64,000 nucleotides of DNA, taken from positions 620,001 through 684,000 of the forward strand of contig NZ_JADWYI010000001.1 in the NCBI RefSeq assembly GCF_016904885.1. Direction: 5' to 3'. Of this stretch, positions 7,657-56,637 are shown in pieces (the first letter of the stretch is position 1; every line of letters begins with the position of its first letter). The stretch is from Archangium primigenium (GTDB taxonomy: Bacteria > Myxococcota > Myxococcia > Myxococcales > Myxococcaceae). The notes beneath the pieces are model-generated. The model saw only the letters and a list, made by a program, of their open reading frames with translations, did no database searches and was not told the DNA's origin. The position numbers and the translations under genes were made by a program.

Positions 7657-10600
7657 ATGCTCGGCCGGGTGAGCCTCCAGACGCCTCCCGGTGCCGGGTA
7701 CGAAGAGGAACTGCACTGCGCCCTCGCTGAGGGGCTCGTGTCGCGCGACGAGGTGGAGTCCCTGCGCGCCGAGGCCCTCCGGCTCCAGCGCAGCCCCCTG
7801 GAATTGCTGCTCGAGCGGGGCCAGCTCTCCCCGGACAGCCTCCTGTCCCTGCGCGGCCGGGCCTCGCCCTTCGAGGCCCCCGCCACCCAGCGCCCCGGCG
7901 CGCCGCCGCCCCCGCCGTCCGCCGAGCCCGCCTTCCCCCTGCCCGGCTGGGAGCGCTACCAGCCCGTGCGCTTCCTCGGCCAGGGCGGCATGGGCCAGGT
8001 GTTCCTCGCGTATGACCCGCGCCTGCGCCGCAACGTGGCCCTCAAGTTCGTGCGCGATGGCGACCCGCAGCTCGCCCAGCGCTTCCTGTCCGAGGCGCGC
8101 GCCCAGGCCCGGGTGCGCCACGAGCGGGTGTGCGAGCTGTACGAAGTGGGGGAGATCCACGGCCGGGCCTTCATCGCCATGCGCTACGTGGAGGGGCGCC
8201 ACCTCGGGCAGCTCGCCCGGGAGCTGACGCTGGAGCAGAAGCTCTCCGTCATGCGGGACGTGGCCGAGGGCGTGCACGCCGCCCACCACGCGGGCCTCAT
8301 CCACCGCGACCTCAAGCCCTCCAACATCCTCGTGGAGCGGCGCGAGGACGGCACGCTCAAGCCCTACATCATGGACTTCGGCCTGGCGCGCGACTGGCAC
8401 GAGGAGCACACCGCCTCGGGCGACGTGCTCGGCACGCCCCACTACATGGCGCCCGAGCAGGCCCGGGGCGAGGTGGGCCGACTGGACCGGCGCGTGGACG
8501 TCTACAGCCTGGGCGCCACCCTGCACCACGTGCTCGCCGGCACCCCGCCCTTCCTGGGCCACAACGCCCTGGAGCTGCTCACCGTCATCCAGACCCAGGA
8601 GGCCCCCGCCCTGCGCGTGTCCCACCCGGACATCCCCGTGGACGTGGAGGCCATCGTCCTCAAGTGCCTGGAGAAGGACCGCTCGGCCCGCTACGACTCG
8701 GCGCGCGCCCTGGGCGAGGACCTGGAGCGCTACCTGTCCGGCGAGCCCGTGCGCGCGCGCCGCGCGGGGCCCGGCTACCGGCTGCGCAAGCGGCTCAAGA
8801 AGCACCGGGGGCTCGTGGCCCTGGGCACCACCGCCGCCGTGGGCCTGGGGCTCGCGCTCGGCCAGGCCGCGCTCACGCGCCACCAGGTGGCCACCCGCGA
8901 GCGCCTCGCCCGCCAGTTCACCGAGCGCGTGGAGCGCCTGGAGGCCCAGGCCCGCTACTCCGCCCTGGCCCCCCTGCACGACATCCGCCCGGACCAGCGC
9001 GCCCTGCGCGAGGACATGCGCGCCCTGGAGGCGGACATCCACGAGCAGGGCGGCGCCGCGCGGGCCCCGGGCCAGTACGCGCTCGGCCGCGCCCTGCTCG
9101 CCCTGGGAGACCCCTCCGGGGCCCTCGAGCGGCTCGAGGCCGCGTGGCGCGAGGGCTACCAGGAGCCCCGCGCCGCCCACGCGCTCGCGCTCGCGCTCGG
9201 CCAGCTCTACCAGCAGGGGCTGCCCGAGGTGGAGTGGGTGAAGGATCCCGTGCAGCGCGAGGCCCGCCGGCGCGAGCTGGAGCGGCGCTACCGCGACCCG
9301 GCCCTCGGCTACCTGCGCCAGAGCGGGGGCGCCGGGGTGTCCTTGTCCGGCCATGGCGCGGCGCTCCTGGCCTTCTACGAGGGGGACCACACGCGCGCCC
9401 TGGCCCAGCTGGACGCGCTGGGCCCCGTGCCCTCCTGGCTCCACGAGGTGCCCCTGCTGCGCGGCGACGTGCTCCAGGCCCGGGCCTGGACCCACCGCAA
9501 CGCCGGGCGGCGCGCCGAGGCGCTCGCGGACCTGGAGGCCGCCCGCGCCGCCTACACCGCCGCGGCCACCATCGGCGAGAGCGACCCCGCGGTGCCCACC
9601 GCCCTGGGCACGCTGGAGCTGGGCGCGCTCGTGCTGGAGCTCTACGGCCCGGGCGACGTGCGCACGCCCTACACCCGGGGGCTCGAGGCCATCACCCGGG
9701 CCCTCACCGCCTCCCCCGAGCACCCCACGGCGCGGCTGGTGCGCGCGCGGCTGCACCGCCGCATGGGCGAGGCCCTGCTGCAACAGGGCGGCGACGTGCT
9801 GCCGCTCGCCCAACAGGCCGCCGTCGAGGCGCGCGCCGTGCTCGCCCTCGCCCCGGCGCACTCGCTGGCCTGGCGCGAGCTCGCGCGCGACCTGCGCCTG
9901 GAGGCGCGCTACCGCCAGGAGCACGGCGAGAACCCCGCCGAGTCCCTGCGCGCGGCGCGCGAGGCCTTCGAGCGCGTGGCCCCGGTGGACCGCGACTACG
10001 GCTTCCACACGGAGCTCGGCCACCTGCTGAAGATCTCCGCCGACGCCGAGGAGCAGCGCGGAGGCGATGCCCTCGCCGCGCGGCGGGGGGCGCTCGACGC
10101 CTACCGGGCCGCCATCGCGCTGGACCCCGGGCTCGTGGACGCGTGGCTCAACCTGGGCACCGTGCTGTACCAGCGCGCCACGAGCCCCCACGCGCCGGAC
10201 GCGGACGGGGACCTGGACGAGGCCGAGCGGACCTTCGCGCGGGCCCGGCGCCTGGATCCGGCCCACGTGGTGGCCGTCTACTACGGCGGCCAGGTGCACG
10301 AGTGGCGCGCGCGCCGGAGCCTCAACCGCGGCGGCGTCCCGGACGCGGAGCTGGAGCGGGCCCTGGCCCTGTACCGCCAGGGCCAGGCGCTCAACGGCAA
10401 GCTGCCCCAGTTCCCCAACACCCTGGGCGGCGCGCTCCTGTGGAAGGCGGAGCTGGCGTGGGAGGCGGGAGGGGAGCCGGGCGCCGCGCTCGACGAGGCC
10501 CGCGCCTGCTTCGAGAAGGCCCGCGCGCTCGCGCCCCAGCAGGGCTTCGCGGACAACAACCTGGGCGAGTGGCACGCCCAGCGCGCGCTCCTGCTCCTGC

Positions 10601-11268
10601 GGCGCGGCGAGGATCCCACGCCCAGCGCCCGGGCCGCCCTGGACGCCTATGCCCAGGCCCTCGCGCGCCTGCCCAAACAGGCCCAGCTCCAGGCGAACCC
10701 CGCCAAGGTGCACCACACCCTGGCGCTCTGGGCGCTGCGGCGGGGGGAAGACCCTTCCGCCGAGCTGGAGCGGGCCACGCGCGCCCTGGACGCGGCGCTC
10801 GCGCTGCGCCCCGGCATGGGCTACGCGCTGCGCTACCAGGGCGAGGTGGAGTCCGTGCGGGCCCGTTGGCTCGCGCACGGGGGCCGGGCCCAGGAGGCCG
10901 ACTTCGAGCGCGCCGCGCGGGCCTTCGCGCGCGCCCTGGAGGCCGACCCCGAGTGGCCCGAGTACCGCCTGGCCGCGGCGCTCCACCAGGGCGAGTGGGC
11001 CGCGTGGCGCACGAGCCGGGGAGACGACGCGCGCCCCGTGCTCGACGAGGGGCTGCGCCAGCTCGAGGGGGCCCTGGCCGCGCGGCCCACCTGGGCCCGG
11101 GCGCGGGCCGCGCGGGCCGGGCTGCTGCGGGCCCGGGCCGAGCTGCCCTCCACCTCCCCGGCCGAGCGGGAGGCGGGGCGGCGCGAGGCGCGCGAGGCGC
11201 TGGAGCAGGCCCTCGCGCACAACCCCCACCTCACGGCGGAGGACGGTACCCGGCTCAGCGCCCGTTGA
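7657..11268 (+). CDS. Hanks-type Ser/Thr kinase with TPR tail
   Basis: The 1203-residue product starts with an 80-residue non-catalytic segment, then a protein kinase domain at about 95-365. The kinase has the glycine loop GQGGMGQVFLA, the catalytic loop HRDLKPSN, DFGLAR and the APEQ segment, all the residues needed for activity. A basic stretch leads to a membrane-spanning segment near residue 385-405 (LVALGTTAAVGLGLALG). The remaining 750 residues are Ala-, Leu- and Arg-rich helical repeats of TPR type, probably binding partners outside the membrane. Kinase-TM-TPR proteins are a standard myxobacterial signalling class. GTG at 7669 is an alternative start. Confidence 0.92.
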   Translation: MLGRVSLQTPPGAGYEEELHCALAEGLVSRDEVESLRAEALRLQRSPLELLLERGQLSPDSLLSLRGRASPFEAPATQRPGAPPPPPSAEPAFPLPGWERYQPVRFLGQGGMGQVFLAYDPRLRRNVALKFVRDGDPQLAQRFLSEARAQARVRHERVCELYEVGEIHGRAFIAMRYVEGRHLGQLARELTLEQKLSVMRDVAEGVHAAHHAGLIHRDLKPSNILVERREDGTLKPYIMDFGLARDWHEEHTASGDVLGTPHYMAPEQARGEVGRLDRRVDVYSLGATLHHVLAGTPPFLGHNALELLTVIQTQEAPALRVSHPDIPVDVEAIVLKCLEKDRSARYDSARALGEDLERYLSGEPVRARRAGPGYRLRKRLKKHRGLVALGTTAAVGLGLALGQAALTRHQVATRERLARQFTERVERLEAQARYSALAPLHDIRPDQRALREDMRALEADIHEQGGAARAPGQYALGRALLALGDPSGALERLEAAWREGYQEPRAAHALALALGQLYQQGLPEVEWVKDPVQREARRRELERRYRDPALGYLRQSGGAGVSLSGHGAALLAFYEGDHTRALAQLDALGPVPSWLHEVPLLRGDVLQARAWTHRNAGRRAEALADLEAARAAYTAAATIGESDPAVPTALGTLELGALVLELYGPGDVRTPYTRGLEAITRALTASPEHPTARLVRARLHRRMGEALLQQGGDVLPLAQQAAVEARAVLALAPAHSLAWRELARDLRLEARYRQEHGENPAESLRAAREAFERVAPVDRDYGFHTELGHLLKISADAEEQRGGDALAARRGALDAYRAAIALDPGLVDAWLNLGTVLYQRATSPHAPDADGDLDEAERTFARARRLDPAHVVAVYYGGQVHEWRARRSLNRGGVPDAELERALALYRQGQALNGKLPQFPNTLGGALLWKAELAWEAGGEPGAALDEARACFEKARALAPQQGFADNNLGEWHAQRALLLLRRGEDPTPSARAALDAYAQALARLPKQAQLQANPAKVHHTLALWALRRGEDPSAELERATRALDAALALRPGMGYALRYQGEVESVRARWLAHGGRAQEADFERAARAFARALEADPEWPEYRLAAALHQGEWAAWRTSRGDDARPVLDEGLRQLEGALAARPTWARARAARAGLLRARAELPSTSPAEREAGRREAREALEQALAHNPHLTAEDGTRLSAR

Positions 11269-42018: not shown

Positions 42019-42834
42019 TCACGGGAGACGCAAGTCGAGCTGGTGCTTGCGTCTCAGCGTGGCGGGGATGAGCTGATCCAGCGCGTCATAGGACAGGCCG
42101 ATGTACTCCTGGGCCGGGTTCAGCAATCGGATCAGCGTACGCGACCACAATCGTTGAACATCGGCGCCCGTACCTGTGCGCATGGCCACGCGGATGTCCT
42201 CGACCATGGGCCGGACGTACTGCTCGACACGTTGCCCGTACAAGTCGAGCAGGTCGGGCCGGTCGAGCATGCAGGCCTTGATGGTCATGGCGCCCCAACG
42301 GCTTCCGTGGCGAGGCCGGGGATACCACCTGCCCGTCTTGCTCACGGTGCCGAGAGAGGTCTGGACGAACTGGATGTGCTCGATGCCGGATTGCGTGGCG
42401 GGATCGATGAGGAGAGGCCGCTCCGCGCCGGGGGGCACGTCTCCCTCTCGCAGGGCCTCACTGCCCTCGGCGAGCGGGAACTTGTCGAGCTTGGCCGGCG
42501 CCTGATTGCAATTGCGGCAGGCGAAGAGGAGGTTCTCCCAGGTCCAGGTGAGCCACCAATAGCCATGGGTCTCGTTGGAGCCAGGCCGCCGGTCCGCGCG
42601 GGCCTTGGGTCGGAAGTGCTCGACGTCGTTGCGCTTGGACTGCTCGCGGCTCTCGCAATAGCAGCACTTGTAGTTCTGCGCTCTCCAGAGCGCATCGTGA
42701 GCCACTTTATATTTCCCGCCCAGGTCCTCTTGTGTGGGTGGACGTGTAGCGGCGAGGCGTTGAACCCTGGGAAGTTCGGTGGCCTTGGCATCGGCGAGTG
42801 TTCCAGGCTCCGCACCCCGGTGGATGCGGATCAC
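42019..42834 (-). CDS. ptuB: Septu-type HNH endonuclease (PtuB-like)
   Basis: I chose GTG at 42834: it has AGGAG 5 bases upstream and overlaps the ATPase stop in a GTGA arrangement. The 271-residue product has KCCYCE, then VEHFRPK, WENLLFACRNCN and KFPL. This is the order seen in the TIGR02646/PtuB branch of HNH nucleases (zinc CxxC pairs plus catalytic His). In Septu systems PtuB is the DNA- or RNA-cutting effector and works with the PtuA ATPase to stop phage. The two genes are translationally coupled here. Confidence 0.78.
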   Translation of the reverse strand: MIRIHRGAEPGTLADAKATELPRVQRLAATRPPTQEDLGGKYKVAHDALWRAQNYKCCYCESREQSKRNDVEHFRPKARADRRPGSNETHGYWWLTWTWENLLFACRNCNQAPAKLDKFPLAEGSEALREGDVPPGAERPLLIDPATQSGIEHIQFVQTSLGTVSKTGRWYPRPRHGSRWGAMTIKACMLDRPDLLDLYGQRVEQYVRPMVEDIRVAMRTGTGADVQRLWSRTLIRLLNPAQEYIGLSYDALDQLIPATLRRKHQLDLRLP

Positions 42835-44219
42835 GTCGGCTCCTGCATGCGAGGGACGGGTTCCCAACCCGGATCGACGCCCGCCGCGGCGAGACGCTTC
42901 TGGATGTCCCTCATCTCCTGCTCCTCTGCGTCGCTTCGCAGCGGATCCGCGATGAGGAAGCTGTAGCGCTGGAGATCCTTGCCGAGATCGGACGGATGCA
43001 GCCGGTCGATGCCGAAGAAGGTGCGGTAGATCTCGCTGCCGGTGAGCAGCGAGGGAGACTCCGGGCTCTCCTGGGCGATGACGTTGCCTTCCTCGTCCTG
43101 ACCCAGGATGACGATCTCCTCACGGGACAGCCCGGGCAGAACCATGGGCGAGTGGGTCGTCACGATGAACTGGAGCTTGGGGAAGACCCGCTTGAGCGTG
43201 GGGATGAGGCCGAGCTGCCACTTGGGATGCAGGTGCAGATCAATCTCGTCGACGAGCACCAGCCCCTCCATGTCGGAGAGAGCAATGGCCCCGTCGTTCT
43301 CCCAGAACATCTGGCCGATGATGTCGGCAATCCAGGCGATGGTGCTCTGATACCCTTGGGACAGCCAAGTAGCTGGGAGCTTCAAGGTGTCCTTGCCCAT
43401 CTTGATGTCGACGCTGTGCTTTGAGACGACGTCATTTGGATTCTTCGCCGAGCCTCGTCCGCGTATCTCGACACCCTTGGCCCGTGGGAGCAATTGACTG
43501 CTCACGAGGGCTTGATTCAACGCGTCCGTGAACTCTTCTGGATTCTCGATCATCTCCGCGAAGCCGGTACCAATCAGTCGACCCCGATCGAACAAGGAGT
43601 TGAGGCGGCTGAGGGCAGGGTCTTCGGCTTTGTCGCTCGCAAAAGGGCGAGGCAACAAGCGAGAGGTTCCATAGCCCGCCACGAACCATTGGGGAAGATT
43701 GGTAGCTCGGGCTTTCTCTACGGGATCTGTACGGATGAGACGAACTTCTACTGGCGAGCTAGGGTCATCCAACTGATGGCTATTTTCATCTCGGTAGAAG
43801 GAAGCGCCATCAAAAACGCTGTAGCCAGGATCTATGAACAGGCTCGTATCGATAAGCGGCGGCTTTTCAAGATGCTGTCCCCTTTCTGGATACTGGCGCT
43901 GCAAGTGTCTTCCCATCCCAAAGGTGAAATTGGCATTTATTGTCGTCATGCCCTTTTCACGTCGTCGGTCAGGCAATGACGGCACATCCGCGAGCTGGTT
44001 GGCGCGGATGTACCCACTTGCCGCCATGGCGATGGCCTGCAGGATGCTCGTCTTACAGAGCCCGTTCTCCCCGATGAGGACCGTCCACATCCGGGGCTGA
44101 CCCTGGGCGTCTCGCAGGTCGAGTCGGAAGTCGCGCAGGAGCTTGAGGCCGGAGACGTGGAGATCGAGGAGGTACATGAGGTTCCATGTGGGACCCAGGC
44201 GGTCCCAGGCGGACATCAT
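42831..44219 (-). CDS. ptuA: Septu-type AAA ATPase (PtuA-like)
   Basis: ATG at 44219 is preceded by GGAGG 8 bases away; product 462 residues. It has an ABC/RecF-like ATPase layout: P-loop GENGLCKTS near residue 50-58, signature-like LSQGYQS, Walker B LVLVDEIDLHLHP and the H-loop TTHSP. The P-loop has Cys55 where a Gly normally precedes the Lys. Paired with the HNH gene this is a Septu-like defence unit. The middle of the gene is noticeably lower in GC than its neighbours, a sign of recent transfer. Confidence 0.78.
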   Translation of the reverse strand: MMSAWDRLGPTWNLMYLLDLHVSGLKLLRDFRLDLRDAQGQPRMWTVLIGENGLCKTSILQAIAMAASGYIRANQLADVPSLPDRRREKGMTTINANFTFGMGRHLQRQYPERGQHLEKPPLIDTSLFIDPGYSVFDGASFYRDENSHQLDDPSSPVEVRLIRTDPVEKARATNLPQWFVAGYGTSRLLPRPFASDKAEDPALSRLNSLFDRGRLIGTGFAEMIENPEEFTDALNQALVSSQLLPRAKGVEIRGRGSAKNPNDVVSKHSVDIKMGKDTLKLPATWLSQGYQSTIAWIADIIGQMFWENDGAIALSDMEGLVLVDEIDLHLHPKWQLGLIPTLKRVFPKLQFIVTTHSPMVLPGLSREEIVILGQDEEGNVIAQESPESPSLLTGSEIYRTFFGIDRLHPSDLGKDLQRYSFLIADPLRSDAEEQEMRDIQKRLAAAGVDPGWEPVPRMQEPT

Positions 44220-44424: not shown

Positions 44425-44925
44425 ATGAAGAAGGTCTTCGTTGCCGAGTGCAGGCTGGGCCGAGGTGTGTTCGCCGCGGTGCCTTTCAAGCGGGGAGACG
44501 TCATCCTCACCTTCGCGGGCCAATTGCGCTCGCTGCGCGACATCCTGGGCCGTCCCGACTCCTTCAACATGCTGCAGGTCGGGCGTGACGAGTACCTGGA
44601 ATTGGAGGCGCCGGGCCTCTATGGCAACCACTCGTGCGAGCCCAACGCGGGCCTCCAGGACAACACCACGCTCGTGGCCCTGCGCGACATCCTCGCCGGG
44701 GAGGAGATCCTCTACGATTACTCCACCACCATGAGCGAGGACCCGGAGACCATGGAGTGCCGCTGCTGCACCCGGCTCTGCCGGGGCATGGTGCGCGACT
44801 TCCAGCACTTGCCGCCCGAGGTGCGCCACCACTACCTGTCGCTCGGGCTGGTGCCGGACTTCATCCTGGAGGAGCAGACCGTGCGCCTGCCCCTGTTCTT
44901 CCAGGAAGGGCTCACGGGCTCCTGA
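44425..44925 (+). CDS. SET-domain protein
   Basis: ATG at 44425 follows GGGAG and gives 166 residues. The SET signature is clear: GRGVFAAVPFKRGDVI near the start, then NHSCEPNAG and the catalytic-type Tyr in YDYSTTM. After it CRCCTRLCRG resembles the Cys-rich post-SET zinc site. SET proteins transfer methyl groups from AdoMet to lysines, classically histones but also other proteins in bacteria. It is soluble and has no partner gene. Substrate unknown. Confidence 0.85.
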   Translation: MKKVFVAECRLGRGVFAAVPFKRGDVILTFAGQLRSLRDILGRPDSFNMLQVGRDEYLELEAPGLYGNHSCEPNAGLQDNTTLVALRDILAGEEILYDYSTTMSEDPETMECRCCTRLCRGMVRDFQHLPPEVRHHYLSLGLVPDFILEEQTVRLPLFFQEGLTGS

Positions 44926-46245: not shown

Positions 46246-49200
46246 TCAGTGCCAGGTCGGCTTCTGCTCGGGGGAGCCGTCCTCCGGGGGAGCGGCCGTG
46301 CCCTGGGCGCGGGTGCGCTCAGCGAGCCGGAGCAACTCGTCGTCGGAGAGCTGCTCGGTGGCGAGCGCCGAGGCATCGGCCTTGACGCGGTCCACGCGGC
46401 CATCGCGGGCGATGTGGAACTCGCCGGTGGACTGGCCGGGGATGCGGGTCGGGTCCACGCGGGCCTCGCTGAGCATGGGCTTCATCTTGTCCAGGGAGAC
46501 CTTCTCCTTCACCCGGCCGATGAACCAGGCGCGGATGGTGTCCCGGCACTTGTAGTCCAGGTCGCCGGGGCTCTGGGTGGCGAGCATGACGCCCAGGCCG
46601 GCCGAGCGCGCGCGCTTGAGCAGGTTCTCCATGGGCTGCTTGGTGGAGGGCTGGCGCATGGCGGGCAGGTACATGTCCGCCTCGTCGAACATGAGCAGGG
46701 CCTGCAAGGTGCTGGAGGGGTTGCGGTTGAGCCAGCGCGTCACCTCGATGAGCAGCTGGCTCACCCAGAAGAGCACGTTGTTGTTGTCCCCGAGGAACTT
46801 GGTGCTGACGATGGTCAGCCGCGTCTTGCCGGGCTTCGCGTGCGCGCCCCGGCCAAGCAGCAGGTCCATATCGAGTTTCTCCGCCCCGCCGTCGAGCAAC
46901 ACCCGGGCATCCAGACGCAGCCGGTCCAGGTCATTGGCGAGCGTGTCGAAGAGCTTCACGTCCAGACGGCCCACGGCATTGACGAGCAGGGGATCCTTGT
47001 CGCCGATGAACTTGACGAGGCCTTCCAGGGTGACGGTCTCGGACGTGAGCTGGACGAACTGATCGATGGCCTGCGCGAGCAGCGTGCGGCAGGACTTGTC
47101 CTTGGGGCTCTGGCGGTATTCGAGCATGCCCGCGAGCGCCTCGGCGGCGTGGCGCGTGGCCTGCTGCCGGTCGAAGTCGGACAGCGCGGCGAGCCCGTCC
47201 GGGACGATGGGGATGGACAGGGGGCGGCCGTGGGGATGGCCCGGGGTGAAGAGGGCCACGTCGATGCGCTCGCGCAACAGGGCCTGCCGGGCGGCGCGGC
47301 GGGGATCGTCCACGTCCTGGGTCCAGAAGGCCTCGGAGGCGTAGCCAGCGAGGTCGCCCTTGCGATCCACCAGGATGACGGGCTTGCCCTGGATGAGGAG
47401 CTGCTCCACCACGTTGAGCGCGAGCGTCGTCTTGCCGCTGCCCGAGCCGCCGAGGAACGCGGCGTGCCGGGTGAACTCGTCGAGGCTGAAGACGATGGGC
47501 TCGCTCCGCATGCTGTCCGTCTCGCCGATGCGCACGGGCTCCTGACGGCCGCTCTTGGGGAGGGGCAGCTCGGCGGTCTGGGCTTTCTTGGGCAGCTCGA
47601 CGGTCTTCGGTGTATCGGGGCGCTTGCGCGGCTCGACGGACGCGGGCTCCCCCTTCTTGGAAAGCGGATCGAGGGGGAAGAGCTGGGTCTGGGAGGGCTT
47701 CCGGGAGAGCTTGGGCTCTTGTTCCGCGGGCGCCTTCTGGGACGGGGTGCTCCCGGTCCGCAGCTGGTCCAGCGCGAGGATGTCGCGCAGGGACTTGAGC
47801 TGGGTGAGCGGCTGACTGCCCTTGAGCCAGGCGGCGAAGTCGGGATGGGCGTCGTGCTGCTGGTGGAAGTCACGGAACGTGAGCAGCGTGCGGATGTCGC
47901 TGTCCTCGAGCACCGCGCGGCGGCCTCCCCCGCTGATGAGCTTGCCCAGCTCCGTGGCCGCCTGGGTCTTGGGATTGCTCGGGAAGTCACTCGTGCGCAC
48001 CACCACGGGTGTGCGGCCCCGGGCGTCCTCGCGCGCCTGTTCGATCTGGTTGGCGAGCCCTCCACCCCGGGTGCCCCGGTTGCACAGGGCCACGTACAGC
48101 TTCTCGTCGCCCGGCAGGACGTCCACCGCGACGTGCTCCCCCTGGAGGTGCGTCTCGAAGCGGTGCCCCGTGTCGAGCTCCCGCGCGCTGGCCTTCAGGG
48201 CCCACACGAGCAGCTGCGCCAGCTCGGCATCCTCCTCGGGCGGGGGCGTGGAGTGGCTGGTGCGGAAGTCGTTCCAGGCCTGGTCGAGCTCCACGGGCGG
48301 TGGTTTGGGCTTCTCGATGGAGATGTCGCCCGGCTCCGATTCCTCCGTCAGCGGGAAGCGCGAGGGGACCGCCCGGGTGCGCATGGCCTGCTCACGCCAG
48401 CGCCGGCAGGCGTCGAGCACCTCGCGCGTGCTCAGGCCCGACAGCCGCTCGAAGCCCTCGTGCGGGAAGGGATAGGTGGGCTCGGCGGGATCGAACGGCG
48501 CGTCCTCGGCCGCGTAGAGCTGCTCCAGACGGCGCTCGGTGATCAGCCGGGCCTCGTCGGCGGTGCGCCGGTTTTTGAGCTCGATGGGCTCGGGGTCACG
48601 CTCGACGCGATCCAGGATGGACCGGGTGAGCCGGGCCTTGAGGCCATTCCAGAAGTCCGTGAGGCAGCTGATGACGATGATGGACGAGGGGGCCCGCTCG
48701 GCGAAGTCACACAGCAGGTGCATGGCATTGCGGAACACCTGGGCCTTGTCCGCTTCCAGGTCGAAGCCCTCCAACTGGTCCACGCACAGCACGAGCGAGT
48801 GGTTGAGCGTCGACATGAGCCTGCCCAGGTGCAGCACCATGTCCTGGGGATCCGTGTCGTGGATGCGCGGCACGAGCCCACCGAGCACCTTGCGGTCGTT
48901 GTCGGACAGGTTCTCGCAGCGCAGGTAGCGCAGGACACGGCCGCGGATGCGCGTGTCGTCGCGCTGCAGGTAGAGCAGCGCGCGCAGCAGATCCAGATCC
49001 AGCTTCTGGAACTCGGGCCGCTTCTGCAGGTCGTCCGCGGCGTTCTCCACCAGGATGGAGATCTCGTCCGGGTCCTGGTCGGGATCCGCGAGCAGGGCGG
49101 CCACCTGACCGCAATGCGAGAGCAGCACGTCGGACAGCTTGCGCAAGCCGGAGTGGGACTCGCCGGGCTCACAGTAGGGCTGATCCAACGAGTCGATGAG

Positions 49201-49551
49201 GTTGCTCAGGACGTAGCGTCCGGGGTTGGCCGTGGACGTCGTCATCTGCATGTAGCCCACGAAGCCCAGGCCGTTCTCGTGGGTGTGCGAGCGGAAGGCG
49301 CGCAGCAGGTGCGTCTTGCCGCAGCCCGAGTCGCCGAGCAGCAGCAGGATGCGTCCGGAGGGCGTGCCCGGGGGCGTGGTGGCGCGGTGGAGCATGCGCT
49401 CGAAGGCGGAGCGCGCCTCCTGGTGCACGGAGCCGACGTCGAAGGGATCTCCCCGCCACACCTCGTGCCGGTGCTGGATGGAGTGGAAGACCTCGGTGCG
49501 ATCCGACAGGAAGGCGTCGAGGCGAGCATCAAGGGTGTCGGTCTGGGTCAT
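46246..49551 (-). CDS. Double ATPase: N-terminal AAA+ plus C-terminal HerA-like motor
   Basis: The 1101-residue protein contains two complete P-loop modules. The first has Walker A GDSGCGKT (residues 73-80) and Walker B SLVLCVDQLEGF near 250, like AAA+/ORC-type switches. The middle (about 420-600) is a non-ATPase region of unknown fold, followed by a charged linker. The second has Walker A GGSGSGKTT near residue 700 and Walker B ALLMFDEADMYLP near 953, with MLATQSPGDLDY, typical of HerA/FtsK-like DNA translocases. It ends the three-gene operon with a wHTH-like protein and a Vsr/DUF559-type nuclease. Such a set suggests nucleic-acid defence. The exact family is not one I can name. Confidence 0.8.
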   Translation of the reverse strand: MTQTDTLDARLDAFLSDRTEVFHSIQHRHEVWRGDPFDVGSVHQEARSAFERMLHRATTPPGTPSGRILLLLGDSGCGKTHLLRAFRSHTHENGLGFVGYMQMTTSTANPGRYVLSNLIDSLDQPYCEPGESHSGLRKLSDVLLSHCGQVAALLADPDQDPDEISILVENAADDLQKRPEFQKLDLDLLRALLYLQRDDTRIRGRVLRYLRCENLSDNDRKVLGGLVPRIHDTDPQDMVLHLGRLMSTLNHSLVLCVDQLEGFDLEADKAQVFRNAMHLLCDFAERAPSSIIVISCLTDFWNGLKARLTRSILDRVERDPEPIELKNRRTADEARLITERRLEQLYAAEDAPFDPAEPTYPFPHEGFERLSGLSTREVLDACRRWREQAMRTRAVPSRFPLTEESEPGDISIEKPKPPPVELDQAWNDFRTSHSTPPPEEDAELAQLLVWALKASARELDTGHRFETHLQGEHVAVDVLPGDEKLYVALCNRGTRGGGLANQIEQAREDARGRTPVVVRTSDFPSNPKTQAATELGKLISGGGRRAVLEDSDIRTLLTFRDFHQQHDAHPDFAAWLKGSQPLTQLKSLRDILALDQLRTGSTPSQKAPAEQEPKLSRKPSQTQLFPLDPLSKKGEPASVEPRKRPDTPKTVELPKKAQTAELPLPKSGRQEPVRIGETDSMRSEPIVFSLDEFTRHAAFLGGSGSGKTTLALNVVEQLLIQGKPVILVDRKGDLAGYASEAFWTQDVDDPRRAARQALLRERIDVALFTPGHPHGRPLSIPIVPDGLAALSDFDRQQATRHAAEALAGMLEYRQSPKDKSCRTLLAQAIDQFVQLTSETVTLEGLVKFIGDKDPLLVNAVGRLDVKLFDTLANDLDRLRLDARVLLDGGAEKLDMDLLLGRGAHAKPGKTRLTIVSTKFLGDNNNVLFWVSQLLIEVTRWLNRNPSSTLQALLMFDEADMYLPAMRQPSTKQPMENLLKRARSAGLGVMLATQSPGDLDYKCRDTIRAWFIGRVKEKVSLDKMKPMLSEARVDPTRIPGQSTGEFHIARDGRVDRVKADASALATEQLSDDELLRLAERTRAQGTAAPPEDGSPEQKPTWH

Positions 49552-49587
49552 CGGCGTTCCCCCGGGGGCCGGTTGGCGGTGCGCGCG

Positions 49588-50580
49588 CTACAGGGCGACG
49601 AAGTGGAAGGTGGCGTTGAGGTAGCGGATCTCCGAGGCGGCGACGTCCGAGGGATCCATCAGCTCCACCATGTCGGCGCGGCTCAGGTCGAGCAGTCGCT
49701 TCTGGTTGGCCTCGAGCAGCCGCTGCTTGAAGGCGCGCTCGTCCAGCGTCGCGTCGCCGAGGTGACGCCAGACATGGGAGATGAAGACGCGATTCTCCCC
49801 GAAACGCCCGCTCGTCGCGTCCCGGGCCGCCCGCTTCACGCGCTCGGCGAAGGCGGACAGGGGCTCCTCGGCGGGCGCGGCTTTTGGCGCGGGAGCGGGG
49901 GCCGGAGCGGGCTCGGACGCGGGCAGGAGCCACGCCTGGAGCGCGGCCTGACGCAGGCTCTCCGCGTCCGTGCGCCGGGCGCCCACCTGGCGCGCGGCGA
50001 GCTGCTCCAGCGCCTGGCCGGGCTTCACCTCGCGCGAGGACTGGAGCATCCGCCCGAGCAGGAAGGACTGCACGTTCGTGAGGCTGAAGGGCTTGTCCGT
50101 CTCCACGCCCAACTGCTTCCAGCACAGCTCGTCCTGCACGGCCCGCAGCGAGCGCTCGCCCACGCGGCCCAGGCCCGTCTGCTTCTGCACGAGCACCGCC
50201 CGCAGGTCCCCCGCCCGGCCCATCTGCTCCCGGCGCGCCGGCGGCACGCCCAGGGCGCGCGCCGTCAGGTACGTGAGCCGCGCCTTCTTCCAGGTGAGGC
50301 CCTTGGGCACGCGCTCCTCGCCGAGGAAGCGCAGCGCCCGTGCCTTGCCCTCGCGCGTGAGCCCCAGGCCCTTGCGCGCCGTCTGCTCGAGGAGCCCCTG
50401 CTCGGTGAGCGCCGCGAGCGTCGTGTCGAGCTGGGCCGTCCACTCGCCGGGGCTCCAGCGGTGCGCCGTGAGCGACTTGAGCGCGCTGGCGACCCCACTG
50501 CGCGCCCCCTTGCCCTCGGCGCGCGTCAGCAACCACACCAGCACCAGCTCCCCCACGCGCGACACTTCAACCCCCTGCAT
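49588..50580 (-). CDS. Winged-helix-like middle protein of the ATPase/nuclease operon
   Basis: ATG at 50580 has AGGAGG 6 bases upstream, better than ATG at 50586. It overlaps the nuclease gene by 14 bases and precedes the double ATPase by 36 bases. The 330-residue product starts with two helical segments resembling winged helices (VGELVLVWLLTRAEGKGARS; TLAALTEQGLLEQTARKGLG). A Pro/Ala linker near 225-240 leads to a conserved-looking end with ENRVFISHVWRHLGD, RLLDLSRADMVELMDP and SEIRYLNATFHFV. No catalytic motif is visible. It may be a DNA-binding or adaptor subunit. Confidence 0.7.
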   Translation of the reverse strand: MQGVEVSRVGELVLVWLLTRAEGKGARSGVASALKSLTAHRWSPGEWTAQLDTTLAALTEQGLLEQTARKGLGLTREGKARALRFLGEERVPKGLTWKKARLTYLTARALGVPPARREQMGRAGDLRAVLVQKQTGLGRVGERSLRAVQDELCWKQLGVETDKPFSLTNVQSFLLGRMLQSSREVKPGQALEQLAARQVGARRTDAESLRQAALQAWLLPASEPAPAPAPAPKAAPAEEPLSAFAERVKRAARDATSGRFGENRVFISHVWRHLGDATLDERAFKQRLLEANQKRLLDLSRADMVELMDPSDVAASEIRYLNATFHFVAL

Positions 50581-51934
50581 CTCCATCCTCCTGGTGTGAC
50601 GGAGCCTCCACGAGGCCTTCCCGTCGGAGCGAGACGACGTCGCGCAGAGTGTCCCGGATTTCCTCCAGCCTGGCCACCACGTCTCGCGCCAGGAAGCGCA
50701 CCACCCAGTAGCCGTGGCACTGCAGGGCCAGGTCCTTGCGCCGGTCCCGGCGGTAGTCCGCCTCGCCCCGGAAGTGGTGGTAGCCGTCCACCTCGATCGC
50801 CACCCGCAGCCGCCGCGAGAGGAAATCCACCTCCACCTCCCGGCCCCTCAGCCGGAACTCGGCCTTCGCGTTGAGCTGGAACAGGCCCCGGGTGTCCGGC
50901 AGGGCCTCGAGCAGGGCGTACAGGAAGCGCTCCGCGGCGCTGCGCGCCTGATCCGCCGCCTCGGGCCCCTCCTGCACGGTGGCCTCGACCCGCCGAGAGG
51001 CCTCGCCGTAGTGCGTCAGCACCTCGTCGGGAACGCCCTCCTCCGCCAATCGCAAGAGGGGGGGGCTGGGGGTCTGCCCTTCCCCCGCGAGCCCCAGGGC
51101 CGCGAGCCGTCCGCGCACCTCCTCGGGGGACGGGGTGCCCAGGGGCAGCCAGCCCTCGCGCACGTGGGCGTGCTCCCGGCGCTCGCCGCCGCGCAGGTAC
51201 GCCTCGCCCTCGGCCGCCGACGCCTGGAGCGCCACCACCAGGGCGGGCACCGCCTCGCAGGCCTGGGACGCCAACCGCGCCGCGTCCGCGAGCCACCGGG
51301 CGTCCCCCGGACCGGACAGGAGCACGGCGGGCGCTCGCCGCTCGGGCACCAGGGCGTGCATCGCCGCCAGCGCCCGGAGCGGCTCCTGGGGCCAGAGCGC
51401 CAGCAGCGCGTCCACGGCCCCGCCGGACTTGTGGAGAACTTGTGCGGGACGCAGCAACCCCTGGCAGGCCGTGGCCACGTCTCCCGGGGGCAGGTGGGGC
51501 CAGAGCACCCGGAGGAGGACGTCGCGCTCGTGCTCGGTCTTCCCCTCCAGGCGGGCGGGCAGTGTCCCGGAATCCAGGTGGGCGGCGGCGCCGAGGAAGT
51601 CCGCGGCGAAGCGCGCGAGCGGCTGGAGGCCCTCGAGCGCCGTGAGCCATTCGCGCACGAGGCCCGGAGCGGAGGGCTCGGCGAGGAGCACGAGGGCCCG
51701 GGCGTGGGGCGCGAGCCAGGCGCGCCAGAGGGTCAGGGCGGCCACGGGGGGGCCGGCGAGCACGGTGAGGGTGGGGATGCCCTGCGCGCGCCGGCGCTGA
51801 TGCCGCTCCAGGGTGTTCGGGAGGGGAGGCGGGGAGGAGCGGGGCGCGGGCATGTCCGGGAGCGTCCCCGAGGTCCAGGCGAGGAGGCAAGCCGGGGGGG
51901 TGACGGGTGGCGGTGTCAAGCGTCGGGAGGACAT
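50567..51934 (-). CDS. Protein with C-terminal Vsr/DUF559-like nuclease domain
   Basis: I use ATG at 51934 (MSSRRLTPPPVTPPA); ATG at 51853 is an alternative, since neither has a strong ribosome site. The 455-residue product has an Ala/Leu/Arg-rich N-terminal 330 residues without a recognised domain. The C-terminus reads VEVDFLSRRLRVAIEVDGYH, then RRDRRKDLALQCHGYWVVRF. That matches the PD-(D/E)XK-type Vsr/DUF559 fold (acidic D...ExD with following His and Arg). It is first in an operon with a wHTH-like protein and the double ATPase, and is divergent from gshB. It is probably the cutting subunit. Confidence 0.72.
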   Translation of the reverse strand: MSSRRLTPPPVTPPACLLAWTSGTLPDMPAPRSSPPPLPNTLERHQRRRAQGIPTLTVLAGPPVAALTLWRAWLAPHARALVLLAEPSAPGLVREWLTALEGLQPLARFAADFLGAAAHLDSGTLPARLEGKTEHERDVLLRVLWPHLPPGDVATACQGLLRPAQVLHKSGGAVDALLALWPQEPLRALAAMHALVPERRAPAVLLSGPGDARWLADAARLASQACEAVPALVVALQASAAEGEAYLRGGERREHAHVREGWLPLGTPSPEEVRGRLAALGLAGEGQTPSPPLLRLAEEGVPDEVLTHYGEASRRVEATVQEGPEAADQARSAAERFLYALLEALPDTRGLFQLNAKAEFRLRGREVEVDFLSRRLRVAIEVDGYHHFRGEADYRRDRRKDLALQCHGYWVVRFLARDVVARLEEIRDTLRDVVSLRREGLVEAPSHQEDGDAGG

Positions 51935-53023: not shown

Positions 53024-55414
53024 ATGCCCGTACGACGAGACGCCAACCGCATCGCCCTGCGCGCCGTCCGCTCCATCCTGGACGCGGCCACCGACCTGAG
53101 GCTCGAGGTCGATGGCCATGCGGTCGATGTCCGCATCGAACGCCTGCCCATCAGGCCCTGGCCCTTGTTGCGACGGGAAGATCAGGATGCGCTGGACGAG
53201 GCCGTCGACGGTCCCTGGCCCGCGGCGGTCCAGGCTGTCTGCACCTGGAAGGGGGGGTCCCAGACGCTCCGGCTCGAGGCGACCTTCTGGTCCGCCAAGG
53301 GAGATGCCTATCACCATTTCATCGCCCTGCGTGTCAACATGGCCGACACGGCACGGCAGCTCATCTGGATTTCCCTGGCATTGCTGTTGAGTGGAGAAGC
53401 GGACGGCGCCGAGTGTGAAGTCCCCACGCTCATCAGCGTCGTCAAACGCAAGGAAGAAGGCGCCGATTACGGGCTCGTCGCGTTGAAGCAGCTCGTGGCG
53501 CGCTCCGGCCTTCCCCTCTACTCTTCTTCCCGGGCTGATACCTTCCGGGTGCGACTGCCGGAAGGGGAAGTCCTGCCCAGTTCCGCCGAGGCTTTCCGTC
53601 GGCTCATCCACCTGGCCTTGCTCAAATTGCCTTTCCTGGCGCGAGAGGAAGTCGCTTCGGGCGCGATCACCCTGCCGTGGTTCCAGCCCACGCCCTCCGC
53701 GCAGCCATCGCCTTCCAAGGGGGAGCCAGACATCGTCCCCGGACGCGTGAGGCTCTTTCCGCTCCCGGGGGGCGTTCGCCAGTACAAGGCCACCCTCGAG
53801 GCCTTGCTGGAATGGATCGGTGAAGCACCTCGGACCGTGCGCGAGTTCGACGAGCATCTTCAACAGCGCTACGACGCGAGAGGGGTTGTCCCGCGCCAGC
53901 ACTATCGGAGGCTGCTTGGTCACCTGGTGCTGGTGAAGGAAACGAACGACCGGATCGAGCTCTCCGATGGTGGCCGGGCCTATCTCGACTCCCGTGACCC
54001 CCTGATGCTCTTCGATCGGCTCGATGCGGCGTACGAGGGCGTGCTCGAGACGCTTGTCATCGCGGTGGTGCTGGGAAGGGCCGGAACGCGTCAGACCCAT
54101 GACCTCTTGGAAGAATTGCTCGATGTGGACTGGCAGTCCTATCGGCAGACCAACGTCCGGCAGAACTGGCTGCTGTCCCTGGGGCTGACCGAGCGTGATG
54201 AGCAGGGTGATGCCCCCACGGAACTTGGTCTGACGGCAATGCGGCGGTACGGCGAGGCCGAGCAACTGCAAGAGAAGATCACCAGGCTGCGAACCGAGAA
54301 CCTGGAGCGCGTAGAGGCCCGTCCAGTCCTGGATGACGAAGCGCTCGATGAGGACGAGGACTCCCCCCAGGGCGACTCCTTGGCGTCAGGCGCCAGTCCC
54401 CTGGCGGATGCGGGGGAGCCGGCGGGTTGGAACGCGGACCGGCTGGACCTCACCCGGGACCATGTCCAGCCACACCTGGGCGCGCTCGAGCTTCCCGCGG
54501 GGGTGATGGAACGGGTCTGCGCGGCGCTCTCGGCGGGCAAGCACCTGCTGCTCATCGGTCCTCCGGGAACGGGCAAGACGGAGCTGGCGCACGCCCTGGC
54601 CCACGCGGCGCGGGCCGAGGGCTACTGCCGGGGGCTCTTCGAGGCCACGGCCTCCGCCGACTGGACGACGTACGAGACCATCGGTGGCTACGCGCTCGAT
54701 CGGGACAAGTCGCTGCGCTTTCGCGCGGGCGCGTTCCTCCAGGCCGTGCAGAACTGGCAGTGGCTGCTCGTGGACGAGCTGAACCGGGCGGACGTGGACA
54801 AGGCCTTCGGCGAGCTGATGACGGTGCTGGGGGGTCGGGGCACGGACACACCCTTCGAGCTCGACAGCGGACGCCGGGTGTCCATCGGCTTCGATGCCGG
54901 GCGGACCCATCGCCTCTCGCGCACGTTCCGGGTCGTCGCGACGATGAACACGTGGGACAAGACGTCCCTCTTCCGCCTGTCCTACGCCGTCCAGCGCCGC
55001 TTCGCCGTGGTCCACATCGGCATCCCCGAGGACGAGACCTATGCGCGCCTGCTCTCCCGGTCCGTGTTGGACCCGGGGGTGGATCCGCCGCTCGATGAGC
55101 CCACGGTGCGCCGGCTCTCCCTGCTCTTCCAGCGCAAGGGCCTGCTGGGCTTGAGGGACATCGGTCCCGCTGTCGCGCTGGACATCGTGCGCTACATGCG
55201 GCGGCGCGCGGCGGCGGGAGACGCTCTGGCCGAGGCCCTCGCGATGTTCCTGCTGCCCCAACTCGAGGGGCTCGATCCCGCGAGCGCCCGGAAGGCCCAC
55301 GCGCTGTTCACGGAGGCCCTCGCGGGGTGGACCTCCGAGACGGCCCTGCGGGAGCTGAAGGAGCGCTGCACGGAGGTCTGGCCTCCGGGCTCCCTCTCCG
55401 GAACGGGCGCGTGA
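53024..55414 (+). CDS. McrB/MoxR-like AAA+ protein with long N-terminal region
   Basis: The 796-residue product has about 430 N-terminal residues of unknown fold with helical, winged-helix-like stretches. The AAA+ domain is at about 470-760: Walker A GPPGTGKTE near residue 512, Walker B WLLVDELNRAD near 585 and the sensor-1 segment VVATMNTWDK. The DELNRAD form is typical of McrB-type GTP/ATPases. The next gene, coupled by GTGA, encodes a PD-(D/E)XK protein, so the pair resembles McrBC-type restriction, which recognises modified or invading DNA. The N-terminal third has lower GC than the rest. Confidence 0.82.
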   Translation: MPVRRDANRIALRAVRSILDAATDLRLEVDGHAVDVRIERLPIRPWPLLRREDQDALDEAVDGPWPAAVQAVCTWKGGSQTLRLEATFWSAKGDAYHHFIALRVNMADTARQLIWISLALLLSGEADGAECEVPTLISVVKRKEEGADYGLVALKQLVARSGLPLYSSSRADTFRVRLPEGEVLPSSAEAFRRLIHLALLKLPFLAREEVASGAITLPWFQPTPSAQPSPSKGEPDIVPGRVRLFPLPGGVRQYKATLEALLEWIGEAPRTVREFDEHLQQRYDARGVVPRQHYRRLLGHLVLVKETNDRIELSDGGRAYLDSRDPLMLFDRLDAAYEGVLETLVIAVVLGRAGTRQTHDLLEELLDVDWQSYRQTNVRQNWLLSLGLTERDEQGDAPTELGLTAMRRYGEAEQLQEKITRLRTENLERVEARPVLDDEALDEDEDSPQGDSLASGASPLADAGEPAGWNADRLDLTRDHVQPHLGALELPAGVMERVCAALSAGKHLLLIGPPGTGKTELAHALAHAARAEGYCRGLFEATASADWTTYETIGGYALDRDKSLRFRAGAFLQAVQNWQWLLVDELNRADVDKAFGELMTVLGGRGTDTPFELDSGRRVSIGFDAGRTHRLSRTFRVVATMNTWDKTSLFRLSYAVQRRFAVVHIGIPEDETYARLLSRSVLDPGVDPPLDEPTVRRLSLLFQRKGLLGLRDIGPAVALDIVRYMRRRAAAGDALAEALAMFLLPQLEGLDPASARKAHALFTEALAGWTSETALRELKERCTEVWPPGSLSGTGA

Positions 55415-56637
55415 GCACACCCTGGGAGGAGTTCCTGCGAGAGCATTTCCCGGGGTACCTGCTGCCCCATTCGCACCGCGCGCGCATCGGGGTGGACGAG
55501 GCCACGCGCTTCCTGGAGCGGCTGACGGGCGAGCCCCGGGCACTTTCCCGCCTGCTCGGCACCAGTCTCCTGGCGGGGCACCTGGAGGAGTTGCGGCGCT
55601 TCGCGCTGGACAGCCTGCCCCGGCTGGTGCGGGAACTCACGGGGCGTACGGAGGTTTATCCGAAGACGTGGGAGGGGGGCTTCCAGGGGCGCCTGGACGT
55701 CCGGGGCACGCTCCTGCGTCATCTGGCGGGCGAGGAAACCCGCTTCATCACCCGGGCGCGTCGGAGGCGGTTCGACCTTCCAGAGCAGATCCTCGTCCGG
55801 ATGACCGTGCAGCGGCTGCTGGGACTGCTGGCCGAGCTGCGCCTGGCGGGCGTGACGGCTCACCACGGCTGGAGCGCCGAGGTCCAGGCGTATGAGGGCC
55901 AGCTGGAGCATCTATTGAAGTCCACGGTGCTGCGGGAGGTACCGGAGGAGCGGCCCGGCGCCTTCCATCTGCGCGCCGCGGAGCTCGCGCGCCATGACGC
56001 CTACCACCTCGCGCGTGACTGGCATTTATACCTGGAGGCGTTGAACGCGCGCGACCCGGAGCAACTGGCGCGGCTCCTGGCCGAGGGCGCGCTCGTGCCC
56101 CTCAAGGATTACACTCGCTTCGAGCTCGCGGTGGCCATCCAGTTGATGCGGGCGCTCGAAGCGCGGCTCGAGCGTGTTCAACCTGGACGCTGGACCCTCC
56201 GCAGGACCCTGGTGGTGCCGGACCGTGACGAACTGGCGGAGTTCCGCCGGGAGGACGGGGCCTGGGTACGGCTCTTCTATAATCAGGCGATCCTGGCCTC
56301 CGGGGCGGCGGAGGCCGGTGCCCGGCACTACTTGAATCAAGGGGGCCGCATGCGACCCGATCTCACCCTGCTGGTGCATCCGCCGGGAGGGCCCGAGCGG
56401 GCCACCGTCGTGGAGATCAAGCACTCATCGAACCCGGAGACCTTGCTCGCGGGCTACAAAGAGGCCCAGCTCTATCGCTGGGAGTACGCGGAGCGGTTGA
56501 CGGGCTGGCCCAAGGCCGTGCTTGTCTCCTCGGGACCCATCGAGCGGCCTCCCCAGCGGAGCGATGACGTCATCGCCGTGGATTGGGCACACTGGGTCCC
56601 CGAGGAGGTTCTGGAGGGATTGCTCGCGGGGCTCTGA
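55411..56637 (+). CDS. McrC-like PD-(D/E)XK nuclease partner
   Basis: GTG at 55411 overlaps the AAA+ stop (GTGA), and this start is preferred over the long frame from 55327. The 408-residue product is mostly helical. Its C-terminal third carries MRPDLTLLVHP followed by ATVVEIKHSS, the D...(E)xK pattern of PD-(D/E)XK nucleases. The arrangement AAA+ followed by nuclease is that of McrBC. The nuclease should act with the upstream ATPase. A kinase-fold gene follows by 30 bases. Confidence 0.75.
   Translation: MSTPWEEFLREHFPGYLLPHSHRARIGVDEATRFLERLTGEPRALSRLLGTSLLAGHLEELRRFALDSLPRLVRELTGRTEVYPKTWEGGFQGRLDVRGTLLRHLAGEETRFITRARRRRFDLPEQILVRMTVQRLLGLLAELRLAGVTAHHGWSAEVQAYEGQLEHLLKSTVLREVPEERPGAFHLRAAELARHDAYHLARDWHLYLEALNARDPEQLARLLAEGALVPLKDYTRFELAVAIQLMRALEARLERVQPGRWTLRRTLVVPDRDELAEFRREDGAWVRLFYNQAILASGAAEAGARHYLNQGGRMRPDLTLLVHPPGGPERATVVEIKHSSNPETLLAGYKEAQLYRWEYAERLTGWPKAVLVSSGPIERPPQRSDDVIAVDWAHWVPEEVLEGLLAGL

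Follow-up and report, generated by a model that had tools for sequence, protein, structure and literature searches.

Three genes, here called A, B and C, are encoded on the minus strand from position 51934 down to 46246 of the window, the 64,000-nucleotide stretch analysed here (positions 620001-684000 of the main contig of a 9.5 Mb myxobacterial genome). The geometry given in a preliminary description, with a 14-base overlap of A and B and a 36-base gap before C on the same strand, holds. The overlap is 14 bases if B starts at its second ATG (50580) and 20 bases from the first (50586). The open reading frame of A reaches an upstream ATG at 51934; the gene probably starts at the ATG at 51853, where relatives start, giving a protein of 428 aa. 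Residues of A are numbered as in protein P0003, counted from 51934. The genes and their domains, in window coordinates, are:

50567..51853, minus strand: gene A, putative effector (PF04480, PDB 3hrl; start from comparison with relatives)
50615..50950, minus strand: nuclease domain of A, DUF559/Vsr-like PD-(D/E)XK (39-row alignment A7)
49588..50586, minus strand: gene B, putative winged-helix adaptor, 332 aa (possible start 50580; profile and model)
50245..50583, minus strand: winged-helix domain of B, residues 2-114 (VIA-align)
46246..49551, minus strand: gene C, double ATPase, 1101 aa
48352..49494, minus strand: STAND/ORC-class AAA+ domain of C, residues 20-400 (AAA_16 3.9e-8, nSTAND1 1.1e-4)
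47752..48300, minus strand: middle domain of C, residues 418-600 (model topology and alignment)
47560..47751, minus strand: disordered linker of C, residues 601-664, of varying length (pLDDT below 50; alignments)
46324..47547, minus strand: HerA/FtsK motor of C, residues 669-1076 (VIA-align and alignment)

The Vsr/DUF559-type PD-(D/E)XK nuclease proposed for the end of A was recovered as a DUF559 domain, with matches to PF04480 (1.3e-7) and PDB 3hrl (4.9e-12). It follows a variable N-terminal region of ~300 residues. The nuclease-like residues, on which the earlier proposal leaned, are conserved: E335, D370, E381, D383, H387, D397 and D401 are invariant in the 39 relatives aligned. For B, which had been called winged-helix-like, profiles and the structure model (pLDDT 93) agree. 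Profile matches include DtxR, PadR, NsrR and TubR, and residues 2-114 align with VIA-align Z of about 11 to MarR, PadR, TubR and the retron-Ec86 effector. MukE is also among the structural matches.

C carries the two P-loop modules that had been claimed for it. Pfam places AAA_22/AAA_16 at residues 52-279 and HerA_C/DUF87 (3.5e-8 and 6.3e-7) from about residue 672, and the model has a pLDDT of 88. The first module matches AAA_16 and nSTAND1, as in the STAND/ORC class; matches to the specific ORC-CDC6-like model are weak (0.02-0.12). In a 55-row alignment, the Walker A residues G73..G78-K79, D258-Q259, R315 and R376 are invariant in the AAA+ domain, as are GSGKT, D956-E957, R982 and Q993 in the motor. 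The nearest folds to the motor in VIA-align are the C-terminal domain of DndH (7es4, Z 31.2) and HerA (4d2i, Z 30.5). HerA-NurA is among the closest structures, and the SIR2-HerA and HerA-DUF4297 complexes appear lower among the fold matches. HerA entries took up the hit lists of C in both VIA-align and Foldseek, and the AAA+ and middle domains are barely covered structurally.

The middle domain has a predicted order of helix, three strands, helix and strand, as in the endonuclease-fold core. Given this modelled topology it may possibly be an inactive endonuclease domain. The alignment contains no conserved D...ExK in this region, and profile searches found no match to a nuclease.

Distribution and genomic setting

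The operon is near-universal in seven Myxococcaceae genera (61 of 63 genomes, counted from the matches listed in a scan of 145 genomes of the order). Complete A-B-C sets are also present in Tsukamurella, Methylobacterium and Nonomuraea, with C identities of 23-25%. With one genome taken per species, at least 80 further loci were identified in Actinomycetota, Alpha-, Beta- and Gammaproteobacteria, Cyanobacteria, Planctomycetota, Verrucomicrobiota, Acidobacteriota and Polyangia. Conservation of gene order in ~60 Myxococcaceae genomes and in relatives of several phyla is far beyond chance, and the operon is genuine. The co-occurrence of the three families, by which the preliminary description proposed to check itself, is likewise confirmed by the A-B-C order in several phyla.

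Among the matches listed, 70 loci have enough upstream sequence to be checked. B is present in 69 of these and almost always abuts or overlaps C, with B-C apparently frameshifted or oddly spaced in a few; A lies immediately upstream of B in 39. B is fused to C in a Polyangiaceae genome (L189).

The genome of the window also encodes a B-C paralogue (L092, G000:C1:4980880-4985099) whose C is ~47% identical. No A gene was found there; within this genome the A profile matches the window copy only. Divergent trypsin and FHA genes adjoin the paralogue and are kept in the same genus, and we take them as neighbours rather than parts. Proteins of 740-960 residues in other Myxococcota genera (L112-L116) resemble C in its HerA part only (33-36% identity) and possibly belong to a related yet different system. 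A Minicystis locus (L297) encodes a second B-C copy without A, followed by a small NACHT/AAA_16 ATPase gene (10412-11257). In Tsukamurella (L124) the operon sits between rpsQ and rplN, within the ribosomal protein gene cluster, and ribosomal neighbours also occur at two further actinobacterial loci.

C has a patchy distribution in the one actinobacterial genus sampled, where 20 of 78 genomes encode it. Relatives were found in 3 of 72,556 plasmid records and in none of the phage records searched. A mobile or recently acquired island was rejected as a description of the operon, given its GC content (71.6%, close to the 70.6% of the window), its fixed loci in relatives and its near absence from plasmids and phages.

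The operon had been placed between a Septu-like and a McrBC-like pair. The Septu pair is real (42019-44219, minus strand; PtuB 3.5e-37, PtuA 1.2e-57). The AAA_5 gene at 53024, in the pair at 53024-56637, is McrB-like in class (8.4e-19). Its overlapping 436-aa partner, labelled McrC, has no match in Pfam or PADLOC. Low GC (61.6%, compared with 71.6% for the operon) suggests that the Septu pair is likely a recent acquisition. This setting had been taken to support a defence role, for which it is poor evidence: the GC of the Septu pair differs, relatives of the operon lie at fixed loci and the McrC label is unconfirmed. For enrichment near defence genes, also put forward as a check, raw counts were taken: BrxL, Cas or mad2 genes adjoin some relatives, and defence-family matches among 143 neighbour genes of relatives are few and scattered.

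SET-domain proteins are uncommon in bacteria. One is encoded at 44431-44922 in the window (PF00856, 1e-11).

Exchange of effectors and of alleles

At several loci A is replaced by other genes that are co-directional and closely packed with B-C, each type of replacement being represented by one to three genomes. A TIR protein and a ParA-like protein take its place in two Lentzea genomes and one labelled Nocardia (L154, L158, L176), DUF4365 and an unknown protein in Kribbella, Pseudonocardia and Actinomadura (L132, L182, L186), and a caspase (Peptidase_C14) and an EAD5-CHAT protein in Minicystis (L194). Several mycobacterial loci have B-C without an effector, beside a conserved oxidoreductase gene. 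It is established that TIR, caspase, CHAT and EAD domains occur in conflict systems (compare PMC8195603). Because A may be absent or replaced while B-C stays, the core is B-C, and A is one output among several. That effectors change while the sensor stays fixed is the strongest argument for an immune role. Thus, of the two roles offered in the preliminary description, defence or DNA processing, we infer that a conflict role is the better reading; A-B-C is probably a sensor-adaptor-effector system directed against invaders.

The HerA/FtsK fold, the winged-helix partner with its MukE match and the fixed locus would also suit a domesticated chromosome-dynamics module, active in FtsK-like pumping or decatenation and unrelated to conflict. 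Swappable TIR, caspase/CHAT and nuclease partners would be unexpected in such a module, as would patchiness in the actinobacterial genus, and we consider this role highly improbable.

In Corallococcus (g6) and in a second genus (g19), a related operon occupies a single locus, with an epimerase gene and pabC nearby. The C proteins of Corallococcus fall into classes that are ~62% identical to each other, compared with 92-96% for the flanking proteins. Ranked by identity, the 97 orthologues in the 200 kb around this locus have a median of 94.4%, and C, at 60.5%, is in the bottom three. Between genomes G059 and G069, dS is 0.71 for C and 0.49 for B, compared with 0.08-0.15 for the flanks, so that C is raised about sixfold, and the break in divergence falls within A at about residue 200. 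The gene trees disagree: the C class forms a fully supported clade, yet the flanks reject this grouping (AU p 5.6e-5), and in the reverse test the flank grouping is rejected on C (AU p 3e-59), with groups named from C identities and p values indicative. The elevated dS and the conflicting trees exclude fast amino-acid evolution as the cause of the divergence. On these comparisons, the Corallococcus variants are old alleles exchanged by recombination. Their pattern fits selection for diversity, and dN/dS values of 0.14-0.46 for C indicate purifying rather than positive selection.

A histidine kinase gene beside the operon (L108 4359-6926 and its Corallococcus orthologues) is also unusually diverged, with dN/dS of about 0.45-0.67.

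Core presence, combined with divergent alleles that cross species lines at one Corallococcus locus, is the pattern to be expected at self/non-self or immune loci. The system might accordingly be a polymorphic barrier to the DNA of other strains, acting on gene transfer, transformation or kin-level incompatibility rather than mainly against phages. The operon contains no modification or immunity gene that we could find, diversity selection is read from allele patterns, and phage pressure could give the same pattern; we think this role quite unlikely.

The main rival to an anti-invader system is DNA repair or end processing of the HerA-NurA type, in which the HerA ring would move duplex DNA and the nuclease would resect or trim ends during recombination. 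Near-universal chromosomal presence in Myxococcaceae, fixed loci in two genera, intact ATPases and nuclease, and the place of HerA-NurA among the closest structures are all in keeping with such a function. It would not be expected of a repair machine that its nuclease is absent or swapped for TIR or caspase/CHAT proteins in other lineages, that it is patchy in the actinobacterial genus or that its alleles are swapped between strains, and A is a DUF559 nuclease rather than NurA. Overall, we regard end processing as unlikely.

Proposed mechanism and significance

The anti-invader system would start from C, which may serve as both sensor and motor. Its HerA domain is predicted to form a DNA-translocating ring regulated by the STAND/ORC-type AAA+ domain, and B may couple C to DNA and to the effector via its winged helix. 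On meeting foreign or aberrant DNA, C would switch on the DUF559 nuclease of A, which could then cut the DNA of the invader, or all DNA in a suicidal response. Other lineages would use the B-C core to drive TIR, caspase/CHAT or DUF4365 effectors. The model predicts that C forms a ring, that DNA is the trigger, that the nuclease becomes activated and that the purpose is to act against invaders.

Several lines of evidence point to this anti-invader reading: the pairing or fusion of B and C, the swapped effectors, the invariant motifs, a HerA fold near that of anti-phage complexes, patchiness in the actinobacterial genus, allele exchange in Corallococcus, and BrxL, Cas or mad2 neighbours at some loci. 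Against it stand the near-universal presence in seven Myxococcaceae genera, which is unusual for a defence system, the near absence from plasmids and phages, the small number of strong defence neighbours, and the purifying, not positive, selection on C alleles. A self/non-self discriminator such as a methylase was not found in the operon, which also counts against it.

A broader reading, which we put forward tentatively and hold to be somewhat doubtful as a whole, treats B-C as an immune chassis of general use. A STAND-HerA fusion protein would sense DNA, an adaptor would accompany it, and unrelated effectors (DUF559 nuclease, TIR, caspase/CHAT, DUF4365) would plug into the two. Among fruiting myxobacteria, this chassis would have turned into a core locus with trans-species polymorphism that controls the acceptance of foreign DNA. 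That the nuclease belongs to a set of exchangeable effectors was not visible to the preliminary description, which was made from the letters alone. If the proposal is correct, HerA motors are not bound to one partner, as a single conserved, DNA-sensing double ATPase would have nucleases, NADases or caspase-like proteases as its outputs, and HerA-based defence would be linked to the STAND/TIR/caspase immunity of multicellular bacteria. It would also be a rare case of a defence-like system becoming core to a bacterial family with its alleles still being exchanged, and allele swaps in culturable strains would allow a test of what selects for diversity when an immune locus is fixed.

Relation to known systems

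PADLOC and NCBIfam gave no name for the whole A-B-C system, and a literature search found no paper on this exact operon. Several known systems share parts of it. HerA-NurA likewise combines a HerA translocase with a nuclease. It uses NurA, whereas the partner of C is a DUF559 nuclease and the operon adds an AAA+ domain and a winged helix. In M. xanthus, the HerA-like protein MXAN_4539, which we do not equate with C, decreases after mitomycin C (PMC12288472).

The C-terminal HerA domain of DndH, from DndFGH, is the best structural match of the motor. DndH has further domains, among them an REase of its own, and in profiles it resembles C in the HerA part alone. In PADLOC, this part of C also matches mad8 of the MADS system (2.3e-23). 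The mad8 model spans 314 residues and lacks the AAA+ half of C. Identity with MADS was rejected, as the match covers the HerA domain only and neither A nor B has a PADLOC match. The anti-phage complexes SIR2-HerA (Nezha) and HerA-DUF4297, among the closest solved folds, likewise pair a HerA motor with an effector enzyme. In these, HerA is a separate protein with no AAA+ fusion and no winged-helix adaptor, and the effectors are different; neither SIR2 nor DUF4297 was found in A or B by Pfam and PADLOC.

The combination had been described as unrecognised. This stands insofar as no named system matches the whole; it does not for the overall type, which resembles the predicted HerA/FtsK capture systems of Rakesh, Aravind and Krishnan 2024 (PMC10853773). 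As set out in the accessible parts of that source, the Orc/CDC6 subtype is predicted to comprise an Orc/CDC6 AAA+ protein, an inactive REase, an active REase, HerA and a wHTH (see also PMC12839542). Shared with this description are a HerA/FtsK motor ATPase, a winged helix and a nuclease, here DUF559 with invariant residues and predicted to be active. The STAND/ORC-class AAA+ domain and the possible inactive nuclease-like domain of C may correspond to further parts of it. In contrast to what these parts describe, the A-B-C operon fuses AAA+ and HerA in one chain with one DUF559 nuclease, and the effector of B-C is swapped for TIR, caspase/CHAT or DUF4365. The capture systems have a mobile neighbourhood, whereas A-B-C is fixed on the chromosome in some Myxococcaceae. 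We do not file the operon as a member of the class as there described, because a mobile gene neighbourhood was not found (fixed loci, no phage record, 3 plasmid records), the ORC-CDC6 model matches weakly and no profile identifies an inactive REase. By its predicted domains, it is a variant of this nearest published kind and would work like the HerA/FtsK capture class.
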